From the NCBI RefSeq assembly GCF_022458985.1, contig NC_061770.1, positions 37,367,599-37,431,598 of the forward strand: DNA of 64,000 bases, written 5' to 3'. Source of the DNA: Mugil cephalus. Lineage: Eukaryota; Chordata; Actinopteri; Mugiliformes; Mugilidae. Below are positions 1,640 through 64,000 of the stretch, piece by piece. A program made the translations under genes and the position numbers. How positions within the stretch are numbered: the stretch's first letter is position 1; every line of letters starts with the position of its first letter. The notes under the pieces are model-generated. The model made no database searches. It was given only the letters and a program-made list of their open reading frames with translations, and was not told the DNA's origin.

Positions 1640-3043
1640 ATGGGATCTCTAACATTTGTTTTCTACCTGATATGTTTGTTCTTGTGGGACAAGGGTGAGT
1701 TGTGTTTTGACTGTGATTTTAATTTTTGTAGAGGCACTGTTTCTAAAATCACTGTCACCGTTTCTCATTTCTAACAATTGTGTCTTTGATTTTTTAGCTC
1801 AGGAGACACATCAGTCCTCATCTGTTCATCAAGAGAGTGGCTTAAGATCAGTAAATGTTGGTGAAAATATCACTTTGCGATGTTTAAATAGAGGACCACC
1901 AACATGGTTATACTGGTATAAGCAAACTGTGGGGCATCACCCAAGGCTCATTTCTTCATCCTATGGTAGTGTTAAGACATTTTATGGTGAATTTGAAAAC
2001 AACCCACGCTTCACACTGAAATCTGAAAATGGTAAAAACCTCTTAAGTATTTCAGATTTGCGTATTTCAGACTCAGCTACTTATTACTGTGCAAGTATAG
2101 CTTCCACCACTGTTGAATTCGCAGAAGGTGTTACAGTCAGTGTAAAAGGTTCAGGTTTGAATATTAACACAGTTCAGTCTTCATCTGAGACCGTCCAGCT
2201 AGGAGACTCTGTGACTCTGAACTGTACAGTACACACTGAGACCTATGATGGAGAACACAGAGTTTACTGGTTCAAAGACTCTGAAGAATCTCATCCAGGA
2301 CTAATTTATACTCATGGAGACAGGAATGATCAGTGTGAGATGAAAAATAACACAAAAACATGCAACTGTGTCTACAACCTGCCAACGGAGAACCTGAATC
2401 TGTCTCATAATGGGATCTACTACTGTGCTGTTGCCTCATGTGGACACGTACTGTTTGGAAATGGGACCAAGCTCAAGTTGAAGAGTGAGTAGAACTGTAA
2501 CAGATGTTTCCTGATCTGATTAACAGTTCTGATTATTCCATAAAGATGATGTTGTTAATGTCATTTCATGTCTGCATCATGCTGCAGATGAGGAGGTTTC
2601 TCTTGTCTTGGTGTATTTCTTGAGTGGTGCTTTGGCGTTCACCACTATCCTGACACTTTCACTGTCTGCCTTACTGTACACACACAAGACAAAAGGCCAG
2701 CAAGCTACAGGTAACTTGTACTGTTTATTACATGATTAGTGAATTTTAACATCATAGAAACACTAGTTTTTTGTGTGTTTCAGAGTCTCATGAAACATTT
2801 TCGGCTTCATACCCAATGAACTCAGAGGTATCCAGATAACTTTCAAAATAATCTTATTGCTGAAATGTTTTCTTCTTAGGTATATGAGACATCATAAGTT
2901 GTTGTTTTCTATTTTATTAGCAGAGTTTCCAGGCTGAAGAAAACCTCCATTACGCTGCTTTAAGAGTAAAGAAGGCCAATCGATCAAGAAGTCAAAGAGA
3001 TGACACAGAGACAAAATGTATCTACTCTGGTGTTAGGAAATAA
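1640..3043 (+). CDS. nitr: N1: NITR-type inhibitory receptor, five exons
   Basis: Exons: 1640-1694 (leader), 1798-2484 (V and second Ig domain in one exon), 2588-2710 (transmembrane), 2784-2827 and 2921/2924-3043 (tail). All join in frame with GT-AG introns to give about 342 residues. The V domain has Cys-23, WLYWYKQT and DSATYYC. The second domain ends in FGNGTKLKL. The transmembrane segment has no charged residue, so association with a DAP12-type adaptor is not expected. The tail has ITIM LHYAAL and C-terminal CIYSGV. Oddities: in the second domain the usual GTCDGEH reads ETYDGEH, losing one of six cysteines, while a new one appears in KTCNC, so the third disulfide may be rearranged. The CDR1-like loop (LNRGPPT) is the most divergent of the set. 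Family call rests on architecture and motifs. The ligand is unknown. Confidence 0.85.
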
Positions 3044-4271
3044 AACCAATCATGTTTTAGCTTCGTCTCTCTTTAGCAGGATATGAGTAGTTTTGTAAAT
3101 AATTACTATAAAAAAAAAAAAAATTGATGACGAGCAGAAGTCTAGAGATGAAAAGTGCCATTTCACAATGTCAGAAGTCCTCCGACGTATACCAGAATTG
3201 TCCCTTTGTATTTGAAATTTGACCATGTGAAAAAAATAACATAAAATAAATTAAAATTAAATGTTGTCTCGTCAGTATTTTCCTTTCACACTGTAGCAGA
3301 TCCTGATTCGTACCACAGCGAAAACAAGCCATGGCCATTGTATTATTTCTATTTTTATATGAAATGAGTTATACTAGTGTGTAATAAATGCAATACTGAA
3401 CATTAAGACAGCAGATTTTTATGATTTTGTGAAACATTTTGTAAAGTTGATTTGAAAAGTGCTATACAAGTGGTGACTTCATATTGATGGATGAAAGTGA
3501 GACTTTTCGCTGCTTCTCTCAGCTACCAGTATTTCTATTATCAATTGTGTTTATGTGCCACCAAGCATCTTTTTTTCAGCAGTTCCGAGTTATTCATTGT
3601 TTTGTAATTGTAATAATAAAATGCATCTTGGTTCCTAAAGTTTAGTGCTGTGCATATTTAATAACCAACTTTTAAGACATTTTTCATCATGCTTCAGTGT
3701 TCCCTGGGTATTAATCATGTTATAGAGGCCAAATAAATGTAAGGCGTTACTTAAGGTCGGGGTTTAAAGGTTCAAGGTTCTATTTTTTCTTAAAATGCTG
3801 TAATACAAACAAAGACAAATGGAGTCGTCGAGTACACATTAGGTCTGAGTTTAAAACATCGTTTTGCACATTTTTACTGATCCTAATTTGAACGATCCAA
3901 TATTGTTTCATTAAAATACCCATTTTAAATACTCTGCGTTCTGGAGGCAGTTTAGTTTGAAGTAAAACTGGTCTCTAAATTAATTGATTGTGAATTGGAA
4001 TCAAATTGATTGAGGAAATCAGTGATGATACGAAGCCATAGTGGAAAAACCAACTGTTTACAACTAATTATTTGTACCAGAAAATAAAAAAAAAATTAAT
4101 ATGAAGATGATGATATTATACCCACAGACATTTACCATCAACATGTTTATAAATTCAAAATGTCCAATGCTTTTAAAGAGGCCACATACTAACCCAAACT
4201 GATGAAGTGACTATGGGCTGTCATGCAGCTCAGTATTAAGGTATGTTGTTAAATCAGTGGTTTCACTGGTG
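3044..4271 (+). other. N1 3' UTR and type-B spacer
   Basis: Non-coding. It begins with the 3' untranslated region. Possible AATAAA-type polyadenylation signals lie near 3245 and 3612. It then runs into the spacer shared with N6, N8 and N10, recognisable by a GGCGTTACTTAAGGTC block near 3740 and a CCAATGCTTTTAAAGAGGCC-like block near 4162. It is cut by the Tc1 fragment at about 4272. No gene is seen. Confidence 0.6.
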
Positions 4272-5134
4272 AAAGAGGAGAGTCAGAGGAGAATGGGCAG
4301 ACTGGTTGGAGATGATACAAAAAGCAACAGTAACTCAAATAACCACTGGTCACAACCACGGAATGCAGAATACCATCTCTGAACGCACAACACGTCCAAC
4401 CTTGAAGAAGATGGACTACAGCAGCAGAAGACCACACCGGGTGCCACTCCTGTCAGCTAAAATCAGGAAACTGAGACTACAGTTCACACAGGCTCAACAA
4501 CACTGGACAATAGAAGATTGGAAAAACGTTGCCTGTTCTAATGAGTCTTGATTTCAGCTGCCACATTCAGATGGCAGGGTCAGAAGTTGGTGTAAACAAC
4601 ATGAAAGCATGGATCCATCCTGCCTTGTATCAAAGGTTCAGGCTGGTGGTGGTGGTGTGATGGTATGGGGGATATTTTCTTGGCACACTTTGGCCCCTTA
4701 GTACAAATTGAGCATGGTTTAAATGCCACAGCCTACCTGAGTATTGTTGCTGACCATGTCCATCCCTTTATGACAACAGTGGACCATCTTTTGACAGCTA
4801 CTTCCAGCAGGATAATGCACCATGTCACAAAGCTCATATCATCTCAAACTGGTTTCTGAAACATGACAATGAGTTCACTGTACTCCAATGGCCTCCACAG
4901 TCACCACATCCAAGTCCAATGGAGCACCTTTGGATTTGCATCAAAGATGTTCTGCTGACAAATCTGCAGCAACTGTGTGATGCTATCATGTCAATATGGA
5001 CCAAAATCTCTGAAGAATGTTCCCAACATCTTGTTGAAAGTATGCCATGAAGAATTAAGGCAGTTCTGAAGGCAAAAAGGCCAACCTTTTACTAGCAAGG
5101 TGTACCTAATAAAGTGACTGGTGAGTGTAGATCA
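4272..5134 (+). mobile_element. Tc1-like transposon fragment, 5' end missing
   Basis: Pieces of a Tc1/mariner transposase are readable: TQITTGHNHGMQNTISERTT, KKMDYSSRRPHRVPLL, then the catalytic-core region around QQDNAPCH and EHLWI in other frames. The right terminal inverted repeat is complete (AAGGTGTACCTAATAAAGTG then ACTGGTGAGTGTA, ending near 5134). The left part, including the DNA-binding domain, is absent. The sequence to the right is the same as that following the copy at 17593-18706, so both copies occupy the same site in a duplicated unit. Confidence 0.8.
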
Positions 5135-5395: not shown

Positions 5396-7090
5396 CAGTC
5401 CCCTCCAAAAGTATTGGAACAGCAAGGAATTTCCCTTGTTTTTGTTGACAAGACATTTGGGTTCAAGATCAAAAGATGATTATGAGACAAGAGTTCAGAA
5501 TGTCAGATTTTATTTCCTGGTATTTACATCTAGATGTGTTAAACAACTTGGCATATATCACCGTTTGTATTACACCACAGCATTTTTAGGTGAGCAAAAC
5601 TAATGGAAGAAGTAATCTTAAGGTAAATAACATTTAATATTTGGTGGCATAACCCTTGCTTGCAATGACTGCTTCAAGCCTGTGAACTATCGACATCACC
5701 AAGCTGTTGCATTCTTTTTTTGTGATACTATTCTTGGCTTGTAGTGCAGTTTTGCTTCGGTTTCCCTTCAGTCTCCCCTTCAGGAGGTGAAATGCATGCT
5801 CAGTTAGGTTAAGGTCAGGTGATTGACTTGGCCAGTCTAAAACCTTCCACGTTTTTTTGCTTTGGGTTCCAGAAGCCGCCATGCTTGCACAAGCCATGGC
5901 ATTACCGCCACCATGCTTCACAGATGAGCTTGTGTGCTTCATATCATACGCAGTTCCTTTCTTTCTCCACACTTTAGCCTTTCCATCACTTTGATTAAGA
6001 TTAATTTGGTCTCATCAGTCCATAAGATTGTGTTCTAGAACTTTTGTGGCTCATCTCTGTACTTCTTTGCAAATTTCAATCTGGCCTTCCGATTCTTACT
6101 ACTGATGAGTGGTTTTCATCTCTTGGTTTGGCCTCTAGATTTCTGCTCTCAGAGTCTTCTTCCAACAGTGGATCGTGATACCTTCACCCCTGCACTGTGG
6201 AGGTCATTTTTCCTTTACAGCTCATGCAATATTTCTGTCCTTAGCTGACCTGTTCGACGTCTGTTGCTCAGTTCACCAGTAGTTTCTTTCTTATTCAGGA
6301 CATTCCAAATTGTTGTGCTTGCTATGCCCACCCACCCAGCAAAAAGTAGTTGAAAAGACATTGAAAAGACATCACTCATGTGCGTCTAAACAACGTCTAA
6401 ATTTGGTTGAAAAGTGAAAGGTGAAAAGCTGTTATTTTCATGTCGTTGAAAAGACGTCTTCAGAAAGACACAATCCAGTTTTCAACGACTATTTTTGACT
6501 AAATCGGACTAACCAAACACAACCCAAGTGTCAACGACTATTTCTTGACTAAATCAAGAATATGATAGACCGACCAGATTTAGCCCAAAAACCAACGTTG
6601 AAATGACGTGTTTGGTGGCCAATGTTTGTCCAACGACTCTGATTGGTTTCCTTCTTTTCTCAGCTTGAAAATGACTTGCTTTTCTCCCATAGATAGCTCT
6701 CTGGTTTTCATGTTGGTTTATCGTCTTTAACAAGAAATGCATTCTTTATAGGTTTCAACCCAGGCCAAAAAGTAGACAAGTCTTGCAGAGCTATTTAAGG
6801 TTTGAACAATCAACCTGGTCAACAAGAAACACCTGTCAGTCACATGGCACATTTTTCTCACCTAAAAATGCTGTGGTGTAATGAAAACGGTGATATATCC
6901 TAAGTTGTTTAACACATCTAGATGTAAATACCAGGAAATAAAAGATGACATTCTGAACTCTTGTCTCATACTCATCTTTTGATCTTAAACCCAAATGTCT
7001 TCAGTGAACAAAAAGAAAAAGCAAACAAAACAAAAAAAAACTAAACCAAGAGAATTTGCCTTGCTGTTCCAATACTTTTAGCGGGGACTG
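5396..7090 (-). mobile_element. Tc1-like transposon, degraded, with TA target duplication
   Basis: Terminal inverted repeats are visible: CAGTCCCCTCCAAAAGTATT at the left end, and its near-complement ending in GGGGACTG at the right. Both ends are flanked by TA (5394-5395 and 7091-7092), the hallmark of Tc1/mariner insertion. On the minus strand 5634-5972 gives a shortened transposase C-terminus (MWRKKGTAYDMKHTSSSVKH, WPSQSPDLNLTEHAFHLLKG, ending in GYATKY). The middle of the catalytic domain, including the second aspartate region, is deleted in this frame. The element is dead. It sits inside another repeat. Confidence 0.8.
6335..6640. repeat. Short repeat nested in the Tc1 element
   Basis: This segment is rich in GAAAAGACGT and TTGAAAAG motifs, with the related pieces CAACGACTATTTTTGACTAA and CAACGACTATTTCTTGACTA spaced about 55 bases apart. 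It interrupts transposase homology, so it looks like a younger non-autonomous insertion. Class unknown. Confidence 0.4.
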
Positions 7091-7800: not shown

Positions 7801-9235
7801 ATGACATCTCTAACGTTTGTTTTCTACCTGACATGTTTGGTCTTGCGGGGAAAGGGTGAGTTGTGTTGTTTGAATTTTATTAGTGACACTTTTTCCAATC
7901 GTTTCTCGTTTTATGTTACAATTTATCTTCTCAAATATGTAATCTGTTGTGTCTTTGCTTTGTCTCTCCAGTCATTTTAGCTCAGAAGACACATCAGTAC
8001 TCTGTTCATCAAGAGAGTGGCTTCAAATCAGTACATGTTGGTGAAAGTATAATTTTGCCATGTTCCTATGAAAAGGATGTGTCAGCAATATTTTACTGGT
8101 TTAAGCAAACATTGGGACAGAAACCAAAGCTTATTTGTAATTTCTACATCTATGGTGACACTGAACTATTTTATGATGAATTTGTGAACAATTCACGGTT
8201 TAAAATAGAAATTAAAAATGGTAAGAAACACTTAAGTATTTCAGATTTGTGTATTTCAGACTCAGCTACTTATTACTGTGGACGTAGAGCTACCACCACT
8301 GTTGAATTTGCAGAAGGCGTTACAGTCAGTGTAAAGGGTTCAGGTTTGAATGTTAAAAGTTTACTTCATCAGTCTTCATCTGAGACCATGCAGCTGGGAG
8401 ACTCTGTGACTCTGAACTGTACAGTACACACTGGGACCTGTGATGGAGAACACAGAGTTTACTGGTTCAAAGTCTCTGAAGAATCTCATCCAGGACTCAT
8501 TTACACTCGTGGAGGCAGGAATGATCAGTGTGAGAGGAAAAATAACACACAAATACACACCTGTGTCTACAACCTGCCAATGGAGAACCTGAATCTGTCT
8601 CATAATGGGATCTACTACTGTGCTGTTGCCTCATGTGGACACATACTGTTTGGAAATGGGACCAAACTGGAGTTGAAGAGTGAGTACAACTGTAACAGAT
8701 GTTTTCTGATCTGATTAACAGTTCTGATTATTCCATGAAGACAATGTTGTTAATGTTATTCCATGTCTGCCTCATGCTGCAGATGAGGAGGTTTCTCTTG
8801 TCTTGGTGTATTTCTTGATTGGTGCTTTGGTGTTCACCACTATCCTGACACTTTCACTGGCTGCCTTACTGTACACACACATGAGAAAAGACCAGCAAGT
8901 TACAGGTAAATTGTACTGTTTATTGCATGATTAGTGAATTTTAACATCATAGAAACAGCTTTTCTTTGTGTTTCAGAGTCTCATGAAAGATTTTCAGCTT
9001 CATACCCAATGAACTCAGAGGTATCCAGATAACTTTCAAATAATCTTATTGCTGAAATGGTTTCTTCTTAGGTATGTGGCACATTGTAAGTTGTTGTTTT
9101 CTATTTTATTAGCAGAGTTTCCAGGCTGAAGAAAACCTCCATTACGCTGCTTTAAGGGTAAAAAAGTCCAATCGCTCAAGAAGTCGAAGAGATGACTCAG
9201 AGACAAAATGTATCTACACTGGTGTTAGGAAATAA
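7801..9235 (+). CDS. nitr: N2: NITR-type inhibitory receptor, five exons
   Basis: Exons: 7801-7855, 7981-8679 (or from 7972), 8783-8905, 8977-9020 and 9113/9116-9235, giving about 346-349 residues. Exon 2 has two in-frame acceptors nine bases apart. The upstream one follows a better pyrimidine tract and would add Val-Ile-Leu before AQKTHQ. The V domain keeps FYWFKQT and DSATYYC. It carries two extra cysteines (LICNF and DLCIS), and the junction reads GRRATTTVEF. The second domain has all six cysteines and FGNGTKLEL. The transmembrane exon differs slightly (LIGALVFTT) and is followed by HMRKDQQ. The tail has LHYAAL, and the C-terminal motif is CIYTGV. Its closest relatives by start and CDR2 pattern (YGDTELFYDEFVNNSRF) are N4 and N7. 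Confidence 0.85.
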
Positions 9236-12233: not shown

Positions 12234-13656
12234 ATGACATATCTAACGTTTGTTTTGTACCTGACATGTTTGTTCTTGTGGGGAAAGGGTGAGTTGTGTT
12301 GTTGCGACTGTGGTTTGAATTTTATTAGTGGCACTATATCAAATTGTTTCTTGCTTCTATGTTATAATTTATCTTCTAAAATCTGAAATCAATCATTTGT
12401 TTGCTTTTTCAGCACAGGAGACACATCAGTCCTCATCTGTTCATCGAGAGAGTGGCTTCAAATCAGTAAATGTTGGTGAAAGTACAATTTTGCGATGTTT
12501 CTCCGGAAGAGTGTCAGAATGGCTGTACTGGTATAAGCAAACTCTGGGACAGAACCCAAAGCTCATTTCTTCCTTCAACATCTATGATAAAAATGGGACA
12601 TTTTATGGTGAATTTGAAAACAACCCCCGCTTCACACTGAAAACTGAAAATCGTAATAGCCACTTAAGTATTTCAGATTTGCGTATTTCAGACTCAGCTA
12701 CTTATTACTGTGCAAGTAGAGCTTCCACCACTGTTGAATTTGCAGAAGGCGTTACAGTCAGTGTAAAAGGTTCAGGTTTGAATGTTAACACTTCAGTTCA
12801 TCAGTCTTCATCTGAAACCGTCCAGCTAGGAGACTCTGTGACTCTGAACTGTACAGTACACACTGGGACTTGTGATGGAGAACACAGAGTTTACTGGTTC
12901 AAAGTCTCTGAAGAATCTCATCCAGGACATTTAGATGGAAATGATCAGTGTGAGAGGAAAAATAACACAAAAACACACACCTGTGTCTACAACCTGCCAA
13001 TGGAGAACCTGACTCTGTCTCATAATGGGATCTACTACTGTGCTGTTGCCTCATGTGGACACATACTGTTTGGAAATGGGACCAAGCTGGAGTTGAAGAG
13101 TGAGTAGAACTGTAACAGATGTTTTCTGATCTGATTAACAGTTCTGATTATTCCATAAAGATGATGTTGTTAATGTCATTCCATGTCTGCCTCATGCTGC
13201 AGATGAGGAGGTTTCTCTTGTCTTGGTGTATTTCTTGAGTGGTGCTTTGGCGTTCACCACTATCCTGACACTTTCACTGGCTGCCTTACTGTACACACAG
13301 AAGAGAAAAGGCCAGCAAGTTACAGGTAAGTTGTACTGTTTATTGCATGATTAGTGAATTTTAACCTCATAGAAACAACTTTTCTTTGTGTTTCAGAATC
13401 TCATGAAAGATTTTCTGCTTCAAACCCAATGACCTCAGAGGTATCCAGATAACTTTCAAAATAATCTTATTACTGAAATGTTTTCTTCTTACGTATGTGG
13501 CACATTGTAAGTTGTTGTTTTGTGTTTTATTAGCAGAGTTTCCAGGCTGAAGAAAACCTCCATTACGCTGCTTTAAGGGTAAAGAAGGCCAATCGATCCA
13601 GAAGTCGAAGAGATGACACAGAGGATAAATGTATCTACTCTGGTGTTAGGAAATAA
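12234..13656 (+). CDS. nitr: N3: NITR-type inhibitory receptor with shortened second domain
   Basis: Exons: 12234-12288, 12413-13099, 13203-13325, 13397-13440 and 13534/13537-13656, giving about 342 residues. The leader starts MTYLTFVLYLTCLFLWGKG. The V domain has FSGRVSEWLYWYKQT, CDR2-like YDKNGTFYGEFENNPRF and junction ASRASTTVEF. In the second domain the usual HPGLIYTHGGRNDQ reads HPGHLDGNDQ, an in-frame loss of several residues from a central strand or loop. All six cysteines and FGNGTKLEL remain. The tail has ESHERFSASNPMTSE, ITIM LHYAAL and TEDKCIYSGV. The shortening may change the second-domain face but does not break the frame. Confidence 0.85.
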
Positions 13657-16282: not shown

Positions 16283-16548
16283 CCTTGCACAAATTTCTCA
16301 TCTCATCTACTACTACTGCTGGAACCTATCCCAGCTGTCCCCGGGCGAGAGGTGGGGTACAACCCGCACAGGTCGACCGGTCTATCACAGGCCTAACATG
16401 GGGACAAACAACCATTTACACTCACACTCAACTAGGCTCCATTTAGAATCACCAATTAACCTAACAAGCATGTCATGGGAGGAAACCAATGATTACGAAC
16501 CTAATGAGTACCCAACACGGACACAGGAAGAACATACAAACTCCACCC
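16283..16548 (-). mobile_element. RTE-like LINE 3' tail, reversed
   Basis: The reverse complement carries the same landmarks as 13988-14259: the ACATGTTTGTTCTTC..GTGT-like start, the GCTTGTTAGGTTAATTGGTG block, the CTGGGATAGGTTCCAGCAGT block and the ATGAGATGAGAAA-like tail. An older, more divergent copy. Confidence 0.65.
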
Positions 16549-17560
16549 AGCATGCTGATCAGCCTCAGTGCAGCTGGAAAACCGAATTGAAAATACAGAC
16601 GTTAAAACACTGCCAATGGTGCAGTTGTAAAAGTTCACCATCAACTGCTTTGGGATTCGGGCGCTTCTCAAATTCCTTAGATTATACAGGAGTTGCCATG
16701 CTTTCCCCACAGTTGAGGAGATGTTAGTGCTCCAGGACAGGTCCTCTGATATGATTAGTCCCAGGAATTTAAAGTAAGACACTCTCCACCACCTCACTCC
16801 CAATGGAGAGTGGAGAGTAGTGTTGTTGGCTGTTTCTACGATTATTTCCTATGTTGTCTTCAATTTGTTGAGATGTTGAGAATCAAGTTATTGTTTTCAC
16901 ACCAGGATGTCAGATGTTGCACCTTAGGATGCAGAAGAGGCCGTGCAGTCATGTATGTAGTTTAAAGCAGTGGGCTGAGCACACAACCTTGGGGTGCCCC
17001 ATTGTTGGTGAGGAGTGAAGAGGGGGACTACCTGTCAACTCTTACAGTCTGTGTGTAGTTTGTCCACAATCCAGTTGAATAGGGTGTTGTTAAATCCCAG
17101 TTTAAGGAGTTTGGGTCAGAGTTTGTAGGGCTGGATTGTGTTGAAGGCGGAAGTGAAGTTGATGAAGATCAGCCTCGCATTGGTGTTTTAGTGCTCTATA
17201 TGTTCCAGCAGTGTCTGGAGTGCAATGGCAATAGCGTACTCGGTCAACCTGTTCTCCTTGTATACAAATTGGTGTAGGTCCTTTGAGACGCACAAATGGC
17301 TAGTTTGAATGTTTTTTGGGGAAGTGACTGAACGTCTGATGCTCTTTGTGTCACCTTGGGTAGTAAATGTGGCCATTTTCATATTTTGACAGCGGAAACT
17401 AAGTTAGAGCTAGTCAAACTTGTCAGAGAAGGATCTCTGGTTTTCAAGACCAGATGTTACAGTCAAGACATCTTCATTTGCCTTTACAGTTGTTCTATTC
17501 TGGGATCCTTTAGGTAACTTAGGTAAGTTGGCCTGAATGGGAATTCCAGGGGCTACCACA
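16549..17560 (-). mobile_element. L2-like LINE fragment, broken
   Basis: The minus strand gives VRWWRVSYFKFLGLIISEDL, KAWQLLYNLRNLRSARIPKQ and VNFYNCTIGSVLTSVFSIRF, the C-terminal reverse-transcriptase region, followed by broken upstream parts (MRLKGPTPICIQGEQVDR and others). It is the best preserved copy of the L2 protein remnant in this window, but it is interrupted repeatedly. Confidence 0.75.
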
Positions 17561-17592: not shown

Positions 17593-18706
17593 ATATACAC
17601 TCACTTATTAGGTACACATGTACAATTGCTTGTTAAGACAAATAACTAATCGGCCAATCATATGGTTACAGGTCAATGCATTTAGGCATGTAGAAGTGAT
17701 CAAGACAACTTGCTGAAGTTCAAACCCAGCATCAGAATGAGGAAGAAAGGGAATTTAAGTGACTTTGAACGTGGTATGGTTGTTGGTGCCAGATGGGCTG
17801 GTCTGAGTATTTCAGAAACTGCTGATCTACTAGGATTTTTGCGCACAACCATCTCTAGGGTTTACAGAGAATGGTCAGAAGAAGAAAAAATATACAGTGA
17901 GCGGCAGTCGAGTGGACGAAAATGCCTTGTTGATGTGAGGGGTCAGAGGAGAATGGGCAGACTAGTTGGAGATGATAGAAAGGAAACAGTAACTCAAATA
18001 ACCACTGGTCACAACCAAGGAATGCAGAATACCATCTCTGAACGCATAACACATCCAACCTTGAAGAAGATGGGCTACAGCAGCAGAAGACCACACCGGG
18101 TGGCACTCCTGTCAGCTGACAACAGGAAACTGAGAATACAGCTCGTACAGGCTCAACAACACTGGACAATAGAAGATTGGGAAAGGTTGCCTGGTCTGAT
18201 CAGTCTCGATTTCAGTTGCGACATTCAGATGGCAGGGTCGGGTAATGGTGTGGGGGATATTTTCTTGACACACATTGGGCCCTTAGTACAAACTGAGCAT
18301 GGTTTAAATGCCACAGCCTACCTGAGTATTATTGCTGACCATGTCCAGCCCTTCATGACCACAGTTTACCCATCTTCTGATGGCTACTTCCAGCAGGATA
18401 ATGCACCATGTCACAAAACTCATGTCATCTCAAACTGGTTTGAACATGACAATGAGTTCACTGTACTCCAATGGCCTCCACAGTCATCACATCCAAGTCA
18501 AATGGAGCACCTTTGGTTTCACATCATAGATGTGCAGCTGACAAATCTGCAGCAACTGTGTGATGCTATCATGTCAATATGGACCAAAATCTCTAAGGAA
18601 TGTTTCCAACACCTTGTTGAAAGTATGCCATGATGAATTAAGGCAGTTCTGAATGCAAAATTGGGGTCCAACCTTTTTCTAGCAAGGTGTACCTGATAAA
18701 GTGAGA
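17593..18706 (+). mobile_element. Tc1-like transposon, nearly full length
   Basis: The left terminal repeat begins at TATACACTCACTTATTAGGT. The right end has AAGGTGTACCTGATAAAGTG, but its last bases (expected ACTGGTGAGTGTA) are missing. It encloses a 300-codon transposase frame. The right flank is the same NITR upstream sequence as after the copy ending at 5134. Confidence 0.85.
17737..18633 (+). pseudogene. Tc1-like transposase, internally damaged
   Basis: The ATG at 17737 starts MRKKGNLSDFERGMVVGARW. A helix-turn-helix-type N-terminus follows (LSISETADLLGFLRTTISRVYREW across two stretches), then RRMGRLVGDDRKETVTQITT, the paired-like second binding domain, and the catalytic region with QQDNAPCHKTH (second aspartate) and QMEHLWFH (glutamate). 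The first catalytic block reads PGLISLDFSCDIQMAGSG. The expected AWSDQSRFQLRHSDG lies in another frame of the same bases, and a stretch present in the 4272-5134 copy is deleted. The frame stays open to the stop but the product should not be catalytically active. Confidence 0.75.
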
Positions 18707-19102: not shown

Positions 19103-20538
19103 ATGGTATCTCTAACGGTGGTTTTCTACCTGACATGTTTGTTCTTGTGGGGAAAAGGTGAGTTGTATTGTTTGAATTTTATTAGTGACACTTCCAATCA
19201 TTTCTCATTTTTATGTTACAATTTATCTTCTAAAATATGTAATCTGTTGTGTCTTTGCTTTGTCTCTCCAGTCACTTTAGCTCAGAAGACATATCAGTCC
19301 TCGTCTGTTCGTCAAGAGAGTGGCTTCAAAACAGTAAATGTTGGTGGAAGTGTAATTTTGCGATGTTCTTATGAAAATGACGAATTAGCAAGGTTTTACT
19401 GGTATAAGCAAACATTGGGACAGAAACCAAAGCTCATTTCTAATTTCTACATCTTTGGTGATACTGAAGTATTTTATGATGAATTTGTGAACAATTCACG
19501 CTTCACACTGGAAACTGAAATCGGTAAAAACCACTTGATTATATCAGATTTGCGTATTTCAGACTCAGCTACTTATTACTGCGCACATAGAGCTTCCACC
19601 ACCACTGTTGAATTTGCAGAAGGCATCACAGTCAGTGTAAAAGGTTCACATTTGAATGTTAACACTTCAGTTCAGTCGTCATCTGAGACCGTCCAGCTAG
19701 GAGACTCTGTGACTCTGAACTGTATAGTACACACTGGGACCTGTGATGGAGAACACAGAGTTTACTGGTTCAAAGACTCTGAAGAATCTCACCCAGGACT
19801 CATTTACACTCATGGAGGCAGGAATGATCAGTGTGAGAGGAAAAATAACACAAAAACACGCAACTGTGTGTACAACCTGCCAATGGAGAACCTGAATCTG
19901 TCTCATAATGGGATCTACTACTGTGCTGTTGCCTCATGTGGACACATACTGTTTGGAAATGGGATCAAGCTGGAGTTGAAGAGTGAGTAGAACTGTAACA
20001 GATGTTTTCTGATCTGATTAACAGTTCTGATTATTCCATAAAGATGATGTTGTTGATTTAATTCCATGTCTGCCTCATGCTGCAGATGAGGAGGTTTCTC
20101 TTGTCTTGGTGTATTTCTTGAGTGGTGCTTTGGCATTTACCACTATCCTGACACTTTCACTGGCTGCCTTATTGTACACACACAAGAGAAAAGGCCAGCA
20201 AGCTACAGGTAAATTGTACTGTTTATTGCACGATTAGTGAATTTCAACATCATAGAAACAGCTTTTCTTTGTGTTTCAGAGTCTCATGCAAGATTTTCGG
20301 CTTCATACCCAATGAACTCAGAGGTATCCAGATAACTTTCAAAATAATCTTATTGCTGAAATGGTAATTCTTAGGTATGTGGCACACTGTAAGTTGTTGT
20401 TTTCTGTTTTATTAGCAGAGTTTCCAGGCTGAAGAAAACCTCCATTACGCTGCTTTAAGAGTAAAGAAAGCTAATCGATCGAGAAGTCGAAGAGATGACA
20501 CAGAGACAACATGTATCTACTCTGGTGTTAGGAAATAA
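19103..20538 (+). CDS. nitr: N4: NITR-type inhibitory receptor, five exons
   Basis: Exons: 19103-19157, 19281-19982 (or from 19272), 20086-20208, 20280-20323 and 20416/20419-20538, giving about 347-350 residues. Like N2 and N7 it has the double exon-2 acceptor, giving AQKTYQ or VTLAQKTYQ. The V domain has CSYENDELARFYWYKQT, CDR2-like FGDTEVFYDEFVNNSRF and the longest junction of this group (AHRASTTTVEF, one extra Thr). The second domain has six cysteines, and its J-like motif reads FGNGIKLEL (Thr to Ile). The transmembrane segment is uncharged. The tail has ESHARFSASYPMNSE, LHYAAL and TETTCIYSGV. Probably an inhibitory surface receptor. Confidence 0.85.
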
Positions 20539-24000: not shown

Positions 24001-24004
24001 GGAA

Positions 24005-46515: not shown

Positions 46516-46898
46516 AGTTGGACGTGTTTCTTTTTTTGTCTCAGGCTTCATCATTTCTCTTTTTATGTATGATGCAACTTTTCAACATTTTTGTTTATTG
46601 TTTATTTCAGCTAAATGTATTGTCTATATGACCTTGACTTCCAATAAACGTAATAAACATGCTTTTCTAAGACACAATGCTTTTCCTGGGCTGATTCATT
46701 GACAGAAAATGATCCAGGCGACACATCAACACCTGTTTGCTGTTATTGTCTCCGTGTGGTTGTAGTTAAAATGTGATAATCTGTGGTTGTGTGAGGGTGG
46801 TACTCTGCATCAGAATATCTGCTGATAGTTGATACAAGTGTAGACACAAATTACAAATGATTTAAGCTAGTGTGGTGAAGGTGGCCTTAAATAAGTAT
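46516..46898 (+). other. F2 3' flank
   Basis: Non-coding sequence parallel to 34870-35240. No gene is seen. Confidence 0.5.
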
Positions 46899-47206
46899 TA
46901 GAGTTGAGCTGGATACTCGGCTGAAATGATCCGGTATCCGGTATGGATCGAGCACTTTTGCCGAGTACGAGTATTATACGAGTAATACGAGTCAATATCT
47001 GTGCTTGGATTGAATGAATGTCTGCGTTCTGTGATAGGCGCCGCGCTGTGCCACACCCCGTCCCTACACACATACACACACAACAGCTCTCTGTCTCTCA
47101 GGCTCAGGTTTGCGGTCTTTTCCGTTAACGTTTAGAGTTTCTTCACCTTCAGGTTTGTTTTTACTCCGGTTTGTACTTACTTATCAACCAGTGGAGTTCA
47201 TCCCTA
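46899..47206. mobile_element. hAT-type MITE with 8-base target duplication
   Basis: The ends are TAGAGTTGAGCTGG and, inverted, CCAGTGGAGTTCATCCCTA. The flanks ATAAGTAT (46891-46898) and ATAAATAT (47207-47214) match at seven of eight bases, the duplication length expected for hAT. The equivalent place near 32870 lacks the insert. About 308 bases, non-coding. Confidence 0.7.
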
Positions 47207-49039: not shown

Positions 49040-50452
49040 ATGGTATCGCTGACGTTTGTTTTCTACCTGACATGTTTGTTCTTGTGGGGAAAGGGTGAGT
49101 TGTGTTTTTGGGACTGTGGTTTGAAAATTCTTTCTCATTTCTATGTTATAATTTATCTCTAAAATATGAAATACATTGTGTCTTTGCTTTTTCAGCTCAG
49201 GAGACACATCAGTCCTCATCTTTTCATCAAGAGAGTGGCTTCAAATCAGTAAATGTCGGTGAAAGTATACTTTTGCGATGTTTCCCTGGAAGAATGTCAA
49301 TAGTGCTGTACTGGTATAGGCAAACATTGGGACAGATCCCGAAGCCCATTACTTACCTCAACAACTATGGTAAAACTGGAACATTTTATGGTGAATTTGC
49401 AAACAATTCACGCTTCACACTGAAAACTGAAAATCATAATAACCACTTAAGTATTTCAGATTTGCGTATTTCAGACTCAGCTACTTATTACTGCGCACAT
49501 AGAGCTTCCACCATCGTTGAATTTGCAGAAGGCGTTACAGTCAGTGTAAAAGGTTCAGGTTTGAATATTAACACTTCACTTCAACGATCTTCATCTGAGA
49601 TCATCCAGCTAGGAGACTCTGTGACTCTGAACTGTACAGTACACACTGGGACCTGTGATGGAGAACACAGAGTTTACTGGTTCAAAGACTCTGAAGAATC
49701 TTATCCAGGACTCATTTACACTCATGGAGGCAGGAATGATCAGTGTGAGAGGAAAAACAACAAACAACCACGCAACTGTGTCTACAACCTGCCAATGGAG
49801 AACCTGAATCTGTCTCATAATGGGATCTACTACTGTGCTGTTGCCTCATGTGGACACATACTGTTTGGAAATGGGACCAAACTGGAGTTGAAGAGTGAGT
49901 ACAACTGTAACAGATGTTTTCTGATCTGATTAACAGTTCAGATTATTCCATGAAGATGATGTTGTTAATGTTATTCCATGTCTGCCTCATGCTGCAGATG
50001 AGGAGGTTTCTCTTATCTTGGTGTATTTCTTGAGTGGTGCTTTGGCGTTCACCACTATCCTGACACTTTCACTGGCTGCCTTATTGTACAAACACAAGAG
50101 AAAAGGCCAGCAAGCTACAGGTAAATTGTAGTGATTATTACGTGATTAGTGAATTTTAACATCATAGAAACACTCATTTTTTGTGTGTTACAGCGTCTGA
50201 TGCAAGATTTTCAGCTTCATACCCAATGAACTCAGAGGTATCCAGATAACTTTCAAATAATCTTTTGCCAAAATGTTTCCCTCTTAGGTATGTGGCACAT
50301 TGTAAGTTGTTGTTTTTTTGTTTCATTGGCAGAGTTTCCAGGCTGAAGAAAACCTCCATTACGCTGCTTTAAGAGTAAAGAAGGCCAATCGATCAAGAAG
50401 TCGAAGAGATGATACAGAGACAATATGTATCTACTCTGGTGTTAGGAAATAA
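49040..50452 (+). CDS. nitr: N9: NITR-type inhibitory receptor, five exons
   Basis: Exons: 49040-49094, 49196-49894, 49998-50120, 50194-50237 and 50333-50452, giving about 346 residues. The V domain has CFPGRMSIVLYWYRQT (Lys to Arg in the usual YKQ), YGKTGTFYGEFANNSRF and junction AHRASTIVEF. The second domain has six cysteines and FGNGTKLEL. Exon 4 starts CGTCTGATG rather than AGTCTCATG, so the junction codon is Ala (ASDARFSASYPMNSE). The exon-5 acceptor is CATTGGCAG without the tandem site, as in N7, and the tail reads LHYAAL then TETICIYSGV. The V domain resembles N3, the tail resembles N7. Confidence 0.85.
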
Positions 50453-53345: not shown

Positions 53346-53374
53346 TGCATTATACTTGAATCTCTACAGCTGAG

Positions 53375-54644: not shown

Positions 54645-56074
54645 ATGACATCTCCAACGTTTGTTTTCTACCTGACTTGTATGTTCTTGTGGGGAAAGGG
54701 TGAGTTGTGTTTTGTGACGGTGGTTTGAATTTTCTTAGTGGCACTGTTTCTAATTGTTTCTTGTTTCTATGTTATAATTTATCTCTAATATTTGAAATCA
54801 ATTGCCTTTGCTTTTTCAGCGCAGGAGACACAGCGCTCCTTTCTTCGTCAAGAGAGTCGCTTCAAATCAGTAAATGTTGGTGACAGTGTAATTTTGCAAT
54901 GTTTCTATGGAAGAGCGTCAACATGGTTTTACTGGTATAAGCAAACACTGGGACAGAACCCAAAGCTCATTTCTTCATTCTACATCCGTCGTGAAAGTAT
55001 GACATTTTATGATGAATACGAAAACAACCCCCGCTTCACACTGGAAGCTGGAATTGATAAAAACCATTTAAGTATTACAGATTTGCGTATTTCAGACTCA
55101 GCTACTTATTACTGCGCACATAGAGCTTCCACCACCGTTGAATTTGCAGAAGGCGTCACAGTCAGTGTAAAAGGTTCAGGTTTGAATGTTAACACTTCAC
55201 TTCATCAGTCTTCATCTGAGATCGTCCAGCTAGGAGACTCTGTGACTCTGAACTGTACAGTACACACTGGGACCTGTGATGGAGAACACAGAGTTTACTG
55301 GTTCAAAGACTCTGAAGAATCTCATCCAGGACTCATTTACACTCATGGAGGGAGGAATGATCAGTGTGAGAGAAAAATTAACACAAAAACACGCACCTGT
55401 GTCTACAACCTGCCAATGGAGAACCTGAATCTGTCTCATAATGGGATCTACGACTGTGCTGTTGCCTCATGTGGACACATACTGTTTAGAAATGGGACCA
55501 AGCTGGAGTTGAAGAGTGAGTAGAACTGTAACAGATGTTTTCTGATCTGATTAAAAGTTCTGATTATTCCATAAAGATGATGTTGTTAATGTCATTCCAT
55601 GTCTGCCTCATGCTGCAGATGAGGGGGTTTCTCTTGTCTTGGTGTGTTGCTTGAGTGGTGCTTTGGCATTCACCACTATCCTGACACTTTCACTGGCTGC
55701 CTTACTGTACACACACGAGAGAAAAGGCCAGCAAGTTACAGGTAAATTGTACTGATTATTGCGTAATTACTCAATTTTAACATCATAGAAACACAGCTTT
55801 TCTTTGTGTTTCAGAGTCTCATGAAAGATTTTCGGCTTCATACCCAATGAACTCAGAGGTATCCAGATCACTTTCAAAATAATCTTATTGCTGAAATGTT
55901 TCCCTCTTAGGTATGTCACACATTGTAAGTTGTTGTTGTCTATTTTATTAGCAGAGTTTCCAGGCTGAAGAAAACCTCCATTACGCTGCTTTAAGAGTAA
56001 AGAAGGCCAATCGATCGAGAAGTCGAAGAGATGACACAGAGACAATATGTATCTACTCTGGTGTTAGGAAATAA
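54645..56074 (+). CDS. nitr: N10: NITR-type inhibitory receptor with altered J-like motif
   Basis: Exons: 54645-54699, 54820-55515, 55619-55741, 55815-55858 and 55952/55955-56074, giving about 345 residues. The mature start is divergent (AQETQRSFLRQESRF). The V domain has CFYGRASTWFYWYKQT, RRESMTFYDEYENNPRF and AHRASTTVEF. In the second domain GIYYC reads GIYDC, and the J-like motif reads FRNGTKLEL, its first glycine replaced by Arg. That could loosen the G-strand bulge. The transmembrane segment has two new cysteines (LVCCLSGALAF). The tail has ESHERFSASYPMNSE, LHYAAL and TETICIYSGV. The frame is open throughout, but several changes in otherwise fixed positions suggest relaxed constraint. 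Confidence 0.83.
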
Positions 56075-58090: not shown

Positions 58091-58150
58091 AGAGTAAAAC
58101 ATAGTTACGACACTTTCATTGTCTTCGATTTTTTTTCCATCTTTTTTCTT

Positions 58151-61100
58151 GTACACAAACAGGTACAAGAAAAAAAATGAACACAATTGCTCTTGTTTCA
58201 ATAACTTTTTTATAAAAATCTTGTTTATTTAACAACTTTTGTACCAGTCATATTTATTCCAGTCCATCAGCTCTAACATAAATTTCAAGTGTGAATAATT
58301 GCTTGTAGAGTTAGATTTTGACTGATCATATTCAAGCATAATTAGTGGTTGTTTGATAGATCTGATACATGGCTCCATCTTGAAGTCCCCATGGTTCTGA
58401 TGCATGTCCTAAAAAGAACTAAATGTCCTTTAGTCTCCTAGATGTCCTTTTAAAATAACGGTAACACTTTCTATGAAGGTTGTATTTATAATGCCCTATG
58501 AATGCACTCATAACATTTTATAAGGTGTCTATAAAGCATTATAATGGTCATTATTACCATCTATACATATTCACAAGTCGTCATAACCAACTTCATGATG
58601 CATTATGACAACTGGTTATGAATGATTATAATTTTAATCTGAATAGTGCATTATAAATATGTCAATATCTGCCTAGTCACTTGCATCATGCATCATAACT
58701 ACTTTGCTTTGCTAAATGTGCATAGTGATGCATAATGAGTTTTGACTTCACCTATAGTGCTTTATATCTGTAGCTATAAGTATATATAATAAAGTTATAA
58801 TAATGTATATATCTCCCTACAGCACACACTTATAAACATCTATGCAATATCATAAGTGCTATTTGTCAGCGCTAAGTAAAGTGACAAGAATATGACACTA
58901 TTATTAACAGATATAAGTTACTATGAGTAATTAAAAGGTGCAATGAACTAAGTCCTGAGTCCGGCATCTTTACCCCATATGCACAATATTATAAATGACT
59001 ATGTTAATATTATAGGTGTTATTTGTCAGCTTTAGGTAAATTAGTGCAAATGAGGTGTTGTGGATATAAGACTATTATAAACAAATATGAGGCACAATGA
59101 AATGAGAGCCTGGACAGTAAAGACAAAGGGAATGCATTTAGTTCACTTTATTTTCATTTAACCCAACCCACATAATCAGAATGATCATCAATGCTCTGAC
59201 ATTACACAAGCACATGAAACACATGAAACAGGCCACAAAAGTGGCACGGCGTGGTCCTAGAGATGTGGCTCTTAAAAGTGCCTTTGGGTTGGTGAGGTGA
59301 TTCAGGGTCAGAGGTCAGGAGATGGTTTGACAGCAACTACAAGAAAAACAGAGGCAAATCTTTAGTGCTCTAGCTGGGTTTGTTTTTATGCAGAAAGGTT
59401 TGATTGAAAACACATAAGCAGATCACGTTTTTTTGTTTAAAGCAGCCTAATGAGACATTATGTTACCGCATATCGTGCAGGCACTGCAGGTTACCTGTAG
59501 ATGGCTTAAACTAGCTACACGAAAGTTACCAGACACGGCTAGTTTTAACTCACAAATTAGATCGTTTTCATATTCTTGCGTTTAATGATTGAAACCATTC
59601 GAAATCATTGCTTTAATATGTAAACGATGTGCTTCATGTAAGCAAAGTAAGGCATTAGCTGACAAAACACTAGCTGGACAGAAAGACAACATACCTGTCC
59701 TGGAGAGGACTCAGCGAAGAAAGGAAAGAAAACCCGTAGTCAATGCTTTACGACAGTGGGAGGAGCTGAGGAGGGGGGTGGGTGGGGTCAGAGGTCAGGG
59801 GCCATGGATTAAAGAATGACATTTCTACAACAATAATATAAATAAAAACGATATTAAAATAATATCTGACGGCATTCAATAAATGCGGACATTTCTAGCG
59901 TTCCTGTATAAAGAAGCGGTTAAATGCCAACCTGGTCTCACAGTGGATGTGAAACTGTCACGAAAATTAATCTATTGTTTGGTGCCTGCTGATTTTTCTC
60001 AAATTTTCATGCCGCTCGAAACGAATTTCAAACTGATGTATTTCAATTGGAAATTATTTCGTGCTATGAGGACCACTGTCAATGTGACACTGCGCAATGA
60101 AGAGGTTTGATTTTATTTCATTTAGACTAGATTTGTAATGGTCTTATTTCGGTTTTTAATGTAACGTCAATTTTGCTGCAGGATTCGGCACTTTGAGATT
60201 CGAAAAAAATTAATGGTTATTTGTTATATCGGTCTCTTATACAGGATCGCTAGAAATATCCGCCTTTATTGAATGCCGTCAGATATTATTTTAATATCGT
60301 TTTTATTTATATTATTATTATTGTAGAAATGTCATTCCTTAGTCCATGACCCCTGACCTCTGACCCCACCCACCTCCCTCCACAGCTCCACCCACTGTCG
60401 TAAAGCATTGACTGTATCAGAAAGCGGTTTTTCTTTCCTTTCTCTGCTGAGCCCTCTCCAGGACAGGTATGTTGTCTCTCTGTCCTGCTAGTGTTTTGTC
60501 AGCTAATGCCTTACTTTGCTTACATGAAGCACATCGTTTACATATTAAAGCAATGATTTCGAATGGTTTCAATCATTAAACGCAAGAATATGAAAACGAT
60601 CTAACTTGTGAGGGAAAACTAGCCGTGTCTGGTAACTTTCGTCTAGCTAGCTTAAGCCATCTACGGGTAATCTGCGCTGCCTGCATGATATGCGGTAACA
60701 CAATGTCTCATTAGGCTGCTTTAAACAAAAAAACGTGATATGCTTATGTGTTTTCAATCAAACCTTTCTGCATAAAAAAAAAAAAAACAAACCCAGCTAG
60801 AGCACTAAAGATTTGCCTCTGTTTTTCTTGTAGTTGCTGTCAAACCATCTCCTGACCTCTGACCCTGAATCACCTCACCAACCCAAAGGCACTTTTAAGA
60901 GCCACATTTCTAGGATTGTTTCTAGGACATTTCTTTGTGGCCTGTTTCATGTGTTTCATGTGTTTGTGTAATGTGCTCAGAACATTGATAATCATTCTGA
61001 TTATGTGTGTTGGTTTAAATGAAAATAAAGTGAACTAAATGCATTCCTTTTGTCTTTACTGTCCAGGCTCTCATTTCATTGTGCCTCATATTTGTTTATA

Positions 61101-62042
61101 ATAGTCTTATATCCACAACACCTCATTTGCACTAATTTACCTAAAGCTGACAAATAACACCTATAATATTAACATAGTCATTTATAATATTGTGCATATG
61201 GGGTAAAGATGCCGGACTCAGGACTTAGATATAAGTTACTATGAGTAATTAAAAGGTGCAATGAACTGTTAATAATAGTGTCATATTCTTGTCACTTTAC
61301 TTAGCGCTGACAAATAGCACTTATGATATTGCATAGATGTTTATAAGTGTGTGCTGTAGGGAGATGTATACATTATTATAACTTTATTATATATACTTAT
61401 AGCTACAGATATAAAGCATTATAGGCGAAGTCAAAACTCATTATGCATCACTATGCACATTTAGCAAAGCAAAGTAGTAATGATGCATCATGAAATGAAC
61501 AAGTGACTAGGCAGATATTGACATATTTATAATTCACTATTCAGATTAAAATTATAATCATTCATAACCAGTTGTCATAATGCATCATGAAGTTGGTTAT
61601 GACGACTTGTGAATATGTATAGATGGTAATAATGACCATTATAATGCTTTATAGACAACCATTATAAACTGTTATGAGTGCATTCATAGGGCATTATAAA
61701 TACAACCTTCATAGAAAGTGTTACCGTTATTTTAAAAGGACATCTAGGAGACTAAAGGACGGAAGGAGGAAAGTTCTTTTTAGGACATGCATCAGAACCA
61801 TGGGGACTTCAAGATGGAGCCATGTATCAGATCTATCAAACAACCACTAATTATGCTTGAATATGATCAGTCAAAATCTAACTCTACAAACAATTATTCA
61901 CACTTGAAATTTATGTTAGAGCTGATGGACTGGAATAAATATGACTGGTACAAAAGTTGTTAAATAAACAAGATTTTTATAAAAAAAGTTATTGAAACAA
62001 GAGCAATTGTGTTCATTTTTTTTCTTGTACCTGTTTGTGTAC
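58151..62042. repeat. 3.9-kb near-perfect palindrome (long inverted repeat)
   Basis: The left arm starts GTACACAAACAGGTACAAGA and the right arm ends with its complement, CTTGTACCTGTTTGTGTAC. Matching landmarks run inward: GGTTGTATTTATAATGCCCT (58480) against AGGGCATTATAAATACAACC (about 61689), the CCTGTCCTGGAGAGGACTCA region (59695) against its mirror near 60450, and GGCATTCAATAAA (59871) against TTTATTGAATGCC (about 60266). Arms are roughly 1.75-1.85 kb around a centre of about 300 bases near 60080. By eye there are only a few differences per hundred bases. No transposase is recognisable. It interrupts the type-B spacer, so it is a young insertion, possibly a foldback or long-TIR DNA element. 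Confidence 0.8.
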
Positions 62043-62454
62043 AGAACTACATATGAATATTTCCCAAGAGCTGACATTACAAGCACAGACATTTACCATT
62101 GACATGTTTATGAATTCAAAATGCCCAATGCTTTCAAAGAGGCCAAATACTAACCCAAACTAATGAAGTGAGTATGGGCTGTCATGGAGCTCAGCATTAA
62201 GGAAGCAGTTTCCTTTCATCATCTGCATGTGGTTGTAGTCAAAAGGTGATGATCTGCAGTTGTCTGTTGGCTGGTATCCTGCATCAGAATATCTGATAAC
62301 TGTGTCTACAAGTGTACAGACATATGACACGTGACTTTAGCTATTGTGGTGAAGTTGACCTTGCACAAATATGTTGGTTAAAAACATAACTCTAAGAAAG
62401 TGGCGTTTTAAACTAGTAGAATATCACTGAGAGTACATGTTGTTGCCCAGATCC
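62043..62454 (+). other. Type-B spacer, resumed after the insertion
   Basis: From CTACATATGAATATTTCCCA the sequence matches 32555-32965. About 110 bases of the original spacer are missing across the insertion. No gene is seen. Confidence 0.6.
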
Positions 62455-63460
62455 ATTCAATTCGTTCTTGGTGACTTCAATCACTGCAGCGCTGACAATA
62501 ATTTTCTGAAAGGTTTTCATCAATATGTCACCTGCACCTATGGGGAAGACTCATGACAAATGTTATGGATCTGTTCCAAATGCATATACGTCTAGTCTGT
62601 CACCCTCCCCCCCACTTGGATCTGCCAATCACGCTACTATCCTGCTTGCACCAGCATACTTCACTCCCTTCATTTCACAACATCACTCCCACCAGAACAA
62701 TTTCAGAAGGCTGGTGAGTGTGAACCCAGGTGCAAAAAGGAAGGCAAGGCACAATCACAATACAAAATCCTTAATTCAAATGGAAGCAGGAGGTCATACA
62801 CAAAATGGCTGACAAAGTCAGGCAAACGAACTGGCAAGGAGAAGCAGAAATCCAAAAAGACAAAGAACAAGAACGGTCATACTCTTAAGGCAAATAGGAG
62901 TAACGCTGGAATGCAAAGACACAAGGTACTAAGACAATCTGGCAGGGAGAACACAGTGGGGCGGGCTTAAATACACACGGAAACAAGACACAGGTGAAAC
63001 ACAAAAATAATCAACCAATGCTGGAAAAAAGAACAAAGAGGGGAAGTAAAACTGACAAAAACACTGGGAAGACAAGGTTTTCAAAATAAAACAGGAAGCG
63101 CACAGAAAACACAAGTAACAGACTCGGACACAATTACCATCTTTCCCAATAACAAACCATGGGTGACGAAATAACTCAAAGCTCTTCTTGACAGGAAATA
63201 GAGTATCTTTTTCTCTGGTTCTTACAGTGGGAAAAAGGAGATGAACAAAGAGGTTAAGGGTGCCATAAAAGCTGCCGAGCTAAAGTAAAGGGACACAGTT
63301 GAGCAAAAATTCAAAGGTGGGAATCTGCGAACAGCCTGGCAAGGTCTCAAAAACATGTCAGCTGGGAATACAACTTCCATCTCTCATGTTGAGGGCAATG
63401 GTCCAGTATCACTGGCTAAGGACCTCAACTCCTTTTTCACAAGATTTGAGACTGACAGTT
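62455..63460 (+). mobile_element. CR1/L2-superfamily LINE fragment, copy 3, with nested repeat
   Basis: It parallels 32965-34119, including the nested MITE-like repeat at about 62713-63170, with an extra deletion before it. At 63440-63460 it continues past the point where F1 and F2 switch to NITR sequence (DLNSFFTRFETDSCTH), then joins NITR upstream sequence directly. No NITR exon is present here. Confidence 0.7.
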
Positions 63461-63946
63461 GCACCCATCTTGAAACAGTTGTTTTGGTCAAGGCATCTTT
63501 ATTTAATTCCCTCTACAGTTGTTCTATTCTGGGATCGTACAGGAGTTAGGTAAGCTGCCCTGAATGGGAATTTCCAGTGGATTCCTTAAATAAGAGGTTA
63601 ATTGAATTTGTTTATAGATCAACTATCAGCTGAGTGCAATCAGAAGTCTCACTGATTATACCTGTAAAGTATTCTACTGGAAAAAAAATAATTATCCAAC
63701 TCGATAACTTAGCCATGTATTGGATGTGATTGTGATCTCTTTTTTGAACATTTCTGCAAACTTAATCCTGAAGAAACATGTGGAATATGACCAATCAGTG
63801 ACATCTTTAAAGGGGGTTACATAAGTATAGGTCATAGGGCAGCTTGAAGAGCAGCTACACTTTTCAAATACTTCTCAACAAGTCTTTAGTCCTGCCCCTT
63901 ACCAAGCTTGTCACTGTGGTTGTGAACATGTTACTTTTATGGGACG
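63461..63946 (+). other. 5' flank of the next NITR gene (N11)
   Basis: Non-coding. Begins with a GAAACAGTTGTTTTGGTCAA block and follows the standard upstream module (AATATGACCAATCAGTGACA near 63786, the GCAGCTACACTTTTCAAATA block near 63850). No gene is seen. Confidence 0.6.
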
Positions 63947-64000
63947 TACAGTTTCACTTCAGACTGGCCAATCAAACAAAGTCTTGTCTTTGAAGAGTCG
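63947..64000 (+). promoter_or_regulatory. Core promoter of a further NITR gene, cut by the window edge
   Basis: ISRE-like CAGTTTCACTTCAG and a CCAAT box at 63968-63972, continuing with CAAAGTCTTGTCTTTGAAGA. By spacing in the other copies, an ATG is expected about 50 bases beyond the window. Confidence 0.65.

Follow-up and report, generated by a model that had tools for sequence, protein, structure and literature searches.

How do the members of a dense tandem array of immunoglobulin (Ig)-type receptor genes come to differ strongly in the part that faces a ligand and so much less in the part that signals? This question is raised by a 64,000-nucleotide stretch of Mugil cephalus DNA (contig NC_061770.1, C1:37367599-37431598; hereafter the window), which lies in a genome of 634.8 Mb in 24 contigs and which carries head-to-tail genes of the novel immune-type receptor (NITR) type. 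Our analysis indicates that the window very probably represents the middle of a NITR cluster, which was expanded by tandem duplication and in which variable (V) and 3' blocks have recombined between copies. Unit coordinates are counted within the window (Table 1).

The window contains ten collinear units. In all ten, exons 1, 3, 4 and 5 measure exactly 55, 123, 44 and 120 nt (exon 5 counted from the downstream acceptor), with GT donors, AG acceptors and identical splice phases. Exon 2, which encodes both Ig domains, i.e. the V and the intermediate (I) domain, is variable in length (687-702 nt, downstream acceptor), and units 2, 4 and 7 offer two possible exon-2 acceptors 9 nt apart. A first-pass annotation of the window had announced ten units of equal orientation with exactly these exon lengths and phases, and the gene models agree with it in every unit. 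Its count of ten genes stands only in part: ten units are present, but the reading frame is open from ATG to stop in nine of them, and unit 6, frameshifted early in the I domain, is either a broken gene or an assembly error. A chance origin of the array can be dismissed, because nine further 300-bp copies match unit 5, our reference copy, at 94-96% identity.

To follow the array beyond the window, the flanks were covered gap-free over C1:37277600-37541598, along with seven 10-kb samples farther out. Hereby, the window family was found to comprise 27 collinear copies (19 open, 8 broken; copy labels begin with U) over about 155 kb, approximately C1:37327119-37482530. The ten window units form the middle of this array, which extends leftward as well as rightward. 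Of the 17 copies outside the window, six have an exon 1 with an aligned length of 49-52 nt, and a small number of exons in U03, U04, U25 and U26 deviate. With the criterion of >70% V identity given in the available text of the medaka paper (PMC2442602), single linkage joins all 27 copies into one family (mean identity 72%, least similar pair 57%), as expected for the locally expanded lineage that had been proposed; at a threshold of >80% they fall into nine groups.

Divergence of the V and 3' blocks

Averaged over all pairs of the ten window units, sequences differ by 0.07-0.11 over the 150 nt upstream of the ATG, by 0.19 within intron 1 and by approximately 0.165 within V. I and intron 2 both stand at 0.06, the transmembrane exon at 0.04, introns 3 and 4 at 0.08-0.10 and exon 5 at 0.05, and the initial 150 nt of the 3' untranslated region (UTR) reach 0.16. 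The upstream block is kept in all 27 copies (mean difference 0.065 from -150 to -76 and 0.109 from -75 to -1) and contains strings resembling what we take to be RUNX, NF-Y and interferon-response sites, by resemblance only. The contrast persists at silent positions. Synonymous divergence (dS) among the nine open window units is 0.235 in V and 0.076 in I, and intron 1 and intron 2 diverge by 0.217 and 0.062 among the ten, so that silent divergence in V and intron 1 is about three times that in I and intron 2. Divergence is greater in intron 1 than in intron 2 for 43 of the 45 window pairs (338 of 351 pairs overall), and V exceeds I in all 45 (334 of 351 overall). Since the overall ratio of non-synonymous to synonymous divergence (dN/dS) is similar for V and I (0.74 and 0.78), this contrast is not mainly caused by purifying selection on I.

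Within V, dN/dS values, which leave out broken units, reach 1.79, 2.33 and 1.83 in the complementarity-determining regions (CDR) 1, 2 and 3 of the nine window units, and 1.1-1.6 in the CDR-like loops of all 19 open units. In the nine units, the framework regions (FR) FR2, FR3a and FR3b yield 0.27, 0.40 and 0.16 and the J-like end 0.07; over both sets the ranges are 0.16-0.27 for FR2 and FR3b, 0.40-0.41 for FR3a, 0.07-0.15 for J and 0.61-0.69 for the I domain. These counts support the notion that selection has favoured change in the CDR-like loops. A 2009 study of the European sea bass NITR cluster by Ferraresso et al. is said to report positive selection in its title.

Do both blocks share one history? 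Over 351 pairs, V-body distances track those of intron 1 (rho 0.30, p 0.005) and show no significant correlation with those of I (rho 0.06, p 0.34) or of the stretch from I to exon 5 (rho 0.12, p 0.18). CDR3, a short stretch, follows neither the V body nor I; its distances correlate with those of the promoter (rho 0.43) and weakly with those of intron 1 and the 3' UTR, and it may represent a further joint. The flanks provide a control. For this control, as for the trees and pair ranks below, 25 units (300 pairs) were used, with U03 and U04, which are full of small indels, left out. Nine of the 300 pairs share homologous flanks on either side, each 300 bp or longer, with mean differences of 0.088 in the flank, 0.153 in intron 1, 0.133 in V, 0.066 in I and 0.073 in intron 2. 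Intron 1 exceeds the flank in nine, V in eight and I in two of the nine pairs. The idea that the I domain alone was homogenised by conversion is weakened by this control, in which flanks (about 0.09) lie between I (about 0.07) and V (about 0.13). These comparisons now favour a V block that would be older or exchanged, beside a 3' block that appears mildly more uniform.

Trees of the 25 units point to partly different histories. V data reject two of the four well-supported 3' clades in the approximately unbiased (AU) test at pAU<0.01, namely U06/U07 (pAU 3e-40) and U14/U16, i.e. window units 7 and 9 (pAU 4e-4). As a control, clades from either half of V were tested with the other half: of 13, none was rejected at 0.01 and two at 0.05. 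We rely here on clade tests with controls, which took at most the eight best clades of each block, because fully resolved whole trees, whose AU tests show rejection in both directions, overstate conflict. Units 7 and 9 illustrate the conflict: their exon 5 is identical (0/120) and the end of their intron 4 shares variants absent from the other eight window units, but their V bodies differ at 57 of 294 positions. Among the 27 copies, the V of unit 9 is nearest to that of unit 3 (V body, 31/294 differences), and the V of unit 7 is close to that of U21, a copy outside the window (12/297). Hence, the comparisons support the view that V and 3' blocks have partly different histories, as would result from recombination between copies; these data do not distinguish gene conversion from unequal crossover.

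Several observations weigh against this reading. Once the five leftmost copies are removed, I and intron 2 distances are no longer correlated (rho 0.09), and the nine pairs with both flanks are not independent of each other. The 3' block carries a weak signal, rejecting none of the eight best V clades at pAU<0.01 and two at 0.05, and there is conflict inside it, with one of seven clade tests between its halves rejected at 0.01. Taken from I through exon 5, units 7 and 9 are only the 30th-ranked pair of 300; their likeness lies mainly in intron 4 and exon 5, and the shared tract is therefore short. As regards selection, dN/dS also exceeds 1 beyond the CDR-like loops, in FR1 (1.2-1.45; 1.45 in the nine window units) and in the V-I linker (1.1-1.7; 1.72 in the nine), both of which show low silent divergence, and CDR borders were placed by eye and dN/dS was obtained by simple counting.

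The strongest alternative is plain birth-and-death, in which units are duplicated and diverge as wholes, no parts are exchanged, and V looks older through faster evolution under selection. In its available text the medaka paper (PMC2442602) favours birth-and-death and considers concerted evolution less likely; moreover, certain groups are the same in both blocks, namely units 5 and 6 and copies U00-U02 at the left end, and the lack of V clades rejected by 3' data at 0.01 is in line with this model. The roughly threefold silent divergence of V and intron 1 is, however, unexplained by amino-acid selection, and V data reject the 3' pairings U06/U07 and U14/U16, so that we regard birth-and-death without exchange as unlikely. 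A mutation rate locally raised in intron 1 and V would let intron 1 and V silent sites rise together, matching the data on silent divergence, but it yields neither conflicting clades nor an identical exon 5 beside a distant V as in units 7 and 9, and we give it very little credence.

Family membership

The first-pass annotation had assigned the genes to the NITR family. In line with this assignment, all testable hallmarks described in the available text of PMC2442602 were found. By gene model, V and I are encoded in a single exon in all nine open window units. The V-set family PF07686 is matched (E ~3e-28) by each of the three exon-2 proteins scanned, with which the remaining units align over V. 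Six cysteines are invariant in the eight aligned window I domains (units 1 and 6 left out); unit 1 also has six, one of them displaced, and the framework recurs with shifts in six flanking I domains. The J-like end of I reads FGNGTKL in seven of the nine open units, FGNGIKL in unit 4 and FRNGTKL in unit 10, and that of V is an FAEG-type variant in all nine. In all ten window units the transmembrane core encoded by exon 3 is devoid of charged residues and the tail carries the immunoreceptor tyrosine-based inhibitory motif (ITIM) LHYAA[LI] (all read from exon 3 on, unit 6 included), followed in nine by the ITIM-like motif CIY[ST]GV, with C for Y in unit 8. Finally, the genes form a clustered multigene family, with 27 copies and divergent relatives on either side. 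The NITRs of pufferfish and of medaka chromosomes 18 and 21, as far as described in the same text (PMC2442602), likewise combine single-exon V and I, six I cysteines, a J-like motif, an uncharged transmembrane segment, a tail with ITIM and ITIM-like motif, and a tandem cluster. Weighing against too firm an assignment, membership was judged by these published features and not by direct comparison with named NITR sequences.

Sequence and fold searches against PDB were tried as a family test and set aside; antibody and T-cell receptor (TCR) V domains alone appeared among the matches listed, which does not discriminate. AlphaFold predictions gave a mean pLDDT of 66.7 for V and I together (V usable, I poor) and of 46.3 for I alone, too low to read the disulfide pairing.

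Membership of another Ig family (CD300/pIgR-like, DICP, NILT, or TCR/Ig V segments) is highly improbable: although searches by sequence and by fold match V to V domains of antibodies and TCRs, it has just two invariant cysteines (C28 and C100, nine units) and mostly a WYKQ framework, shares its exon with a six-cysteine I domain that ends in an FGNGTKL-type motif, is linked to an ITIM tail, and its V-J end lacks an adjoining recombination signal. Our sequence-level contrasts covered CD300/pIgR-like genes and TCR/Ig V segments. CD300/pIgR-like V domains have a second disulfide, which finds no counterpart among the invariant cysteines of V in the nine units. As to recombination signals, exact matching returned no 12-spacer signal. 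With up to three mismatches, five 23-spacer matches were obtained (shuffles: average 1.5, maximum 4), three of which are one repeated sequence and one of which straddles, on the minus strand, the boundary between exon 1 and intron 1 of unit 1; the V-J ends of the exons are free of matches.

Extent of the cluster and neighbouring features

More divergent NITR-like genes of the same build surround the array and bring the cluster to at least 306 kb in total. Outside the array, the left side has 13 I-domain places and the right side 10, a single one of the latter being decayed. No V or I match was found in the left samples at 37.248, 37.218 and 37.188 Mb or in the right samples at 37.542 and 37.602 Mb; gaps in coverage lie, among others, at 37257600-37267599 to the left and, to the right, at 37551599-37571598 and at 37581599-37601598, and the cluster ends are not fixed. 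The synteny published for NITRs involves map4k2, men1 and rtn3. Here, the left neighbour at 37.248 Mb is a gene with prostaglandin D2 receptor 2 as best PDB match (PTGDR2-like, E 1.3e-101); the same sample carries a piece of another G protein-coupled receptor, and the 37.188-Mb sample an acetylcholine receptor beta-like piece.

On the right flank, C1:37487866-37511628 holds NITR-like units with V and I in separate exons beside single-exon units, and C1:37513541-37514768 (minus strand) a NITR-like gene, likewise with separate V and I exons, with a mid-membrane arginine as in activating NITRs. Medaka chromosome 18, according to the available text of PMC2442602, shows a comparable mix of single-exon genes and the two-exon activating NITR9. 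From C1:37516628 to about 37607500, on the right-hand side of the NITR cluster, lie repeated Ig genes of another type with a single V domain (WFRVV or WYRVV ... LY[FV]CG). Further dense clusters of V-set exons, seen on C7, C14, C17 and C20 among the 150 of 2536 candidates scored, are presumably immunoglobulin, TCR and other receptor loci.

Copies U03 and U04 (C1:37342650-37348990) carry 58-59 indel events against a near copy, as opposed to 2-13 in the other eight compared pairs. This load probably reflects uncorrected assembly rather than natural decay and casts some doubt on single frameshifts elsewhere; some of the broken units may be assembly errors.

The first-pass annotation had further described two gene fragments and an eleventh promoter with an ATG expected about 50 bases past the right edge. 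Both fragments are real, each covering only the last part of the I domain, and they are taken as one event that was copied, since both sit in a duplicated block of about 2.2 kb (33018-35254 and 44674-46908, 92.6% identity). In the flanking sequence the leader ATG of the eleventh unit was located at 64052, 52 bases beyond the edge; this unit is also frameshifted. Together with the further copies in the flank it confirms that the array continues to the right.

Table 1. Features of the window (the first position of each unit is that of its ATG; slashes separate alternative exon-2 acceptors).
Feature	Positions	Strand	Remarks
Unit 1	1640-1694, 1798-2484, 2588-2710, 2784-2827, 2924-3043	+	open
Unit 2	7801-7855, 7972/7981-8679, 8783-8905, 8977-9020, 9116-9235	+	open
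Unit 3	12234-12288, 12413-13099, 13203-13325, 13397-13440, 13537-13656	+	open
Unit 4	19103-19157, 19272/19281-19982, 20086-20208, 20280-20323, 20419-20538	+	open
Unit 5 (reference)	24111-24165, 24284-24985, 25089-25211, 25285-25328, 25426-25545	+	open
Unit 6	29797-31228; exon 2 29973-30672	+	exon layout as others; exon 2 frameshifted in I domain
Unit 7	36521-36575, 36705/36714-37415, 37519-37641, 37713-37756, 37862-37981	+	open
Unit 8	41957-42011, 42130-42828, 42932-43054, 43122-43165, 43259-43378	+	open; Cys replaces second tail tyrosine
Unit 9	49040-49094, 49196-49894, 49998-50120, 50194-50237, 50333-50452	+	open
Unit 10	54645-54699, 54820-55515, 55619-55741, 55815-55858, 55955-56074	+	open
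Fragment A	34119-34224	+	final I-domain coding part, 106 nt, within unrelated repeat-like open frame
Fragment B	45766-45871	+	same 106-nt I-domain end as fragment A
Eleventh unit, start of conserved promoter block	63951-64000	+	right edge
Conserved upstream block (unit 5 example)	23961-24110	+	
Divergent block, intron 1 and V (unit 5 example)	24166-24642	+	silent divergence ~0.22-0.24, window units
Uniform block, I to exon 5 (unit 5 example)	24643-25545	+	silent (I) and intron 2-4 divergence ~0.06-0.11, window units

A few further observations concern splicing and the sequence between units. Copies U19, U20 and U22, outside the window, retain the upstream exon-2 acceptor only, and eight of the ten window units show a TAG-CAG tandem acceptor at exon 5. 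An inverted duplication of 1.8 kb (58146-59914 and 60233-62046, 93% identity) lies between unit 10 and the eleventh unit. Tc1/mariner-like transposase remnants are found between units at 4273-5044, 5637-6011 and 17686-18627, the latter two with Pfam matches below the cut-off only. Minus-strand repeat-like frames at 224-730 and 16507-16848 match Pfam ALKBH8_N above the cut-off; they look like retroelement pieces, and the Pfam name may reflect a contaminated model.

Predicted receptor and significance

Each unit would encode a type I membrane receptor, in which exon 1 supplies the signal peptide, exon 2 the V domain and the six-cysteine I domain, exon 3 the uncharged transmembrane segment and exon 5 the tail with its ITIM and, except in unit 8, its ITIM-like motif. 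An inhibitory action of the receptor is likely. By analogy with known NITR biology, from which ligand, cell type, surface expression on natural killer (NK)-like cells and signalling are inferred, the V domain would meet a cell-surface ligand via its CDR-like loops, and phosphorylation of the ITIM tyrosine would recruit phosphatases that restrain an NK-like lymphocyte. Zebrafish nitr genes are known, from the available text of PMC5340972, to be expressed in NK-like lymphocytes.

The array itself very probably grew by tandem duplication of units of about 4-9 kb, and recombination between copies has probably separated ligand-facing from signalling parts, with a switch in history near the V/I junction within exon 2. 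Tentatively, and with somewhat less than even confidence, the locus may be viewed as a germline cassette system, in which copies share promoter type and signalling half while V blocks are swapped across the exon-2 boundary, yielding new combinations without somatic rearrangement.

KIRs and NITRs differ in their domain types. As described in the available text of PMC2442602, mammalian KIRs are likewise germline-encoded Ig receptors of type I that turn over fast and include inhibitory as well as activating forms, and shared ancestry of both families is left undecided there. NITR clusters, single-exon V and I genes and V diversification are already known from the same text (PMC2442602). It describes medaka families of up to five members among 44 genes, compared to 27 head-to-tail copies of one family here. 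Judged by titles and abstract openings, we found no literature on gene conversion in NITRs. To us, both a single-family array of this size and evidence from introns that V and 3' blocks have separate histories are new.

In conclusion, NITRs represent V-type domains that are diversified in the germline of innate receptors. The 27-copy single-family array provides a natural series for testing how such germline V diversity arises and persists, and the mosaic units 7 and 9 offer a tangible case to examine in further individuals.

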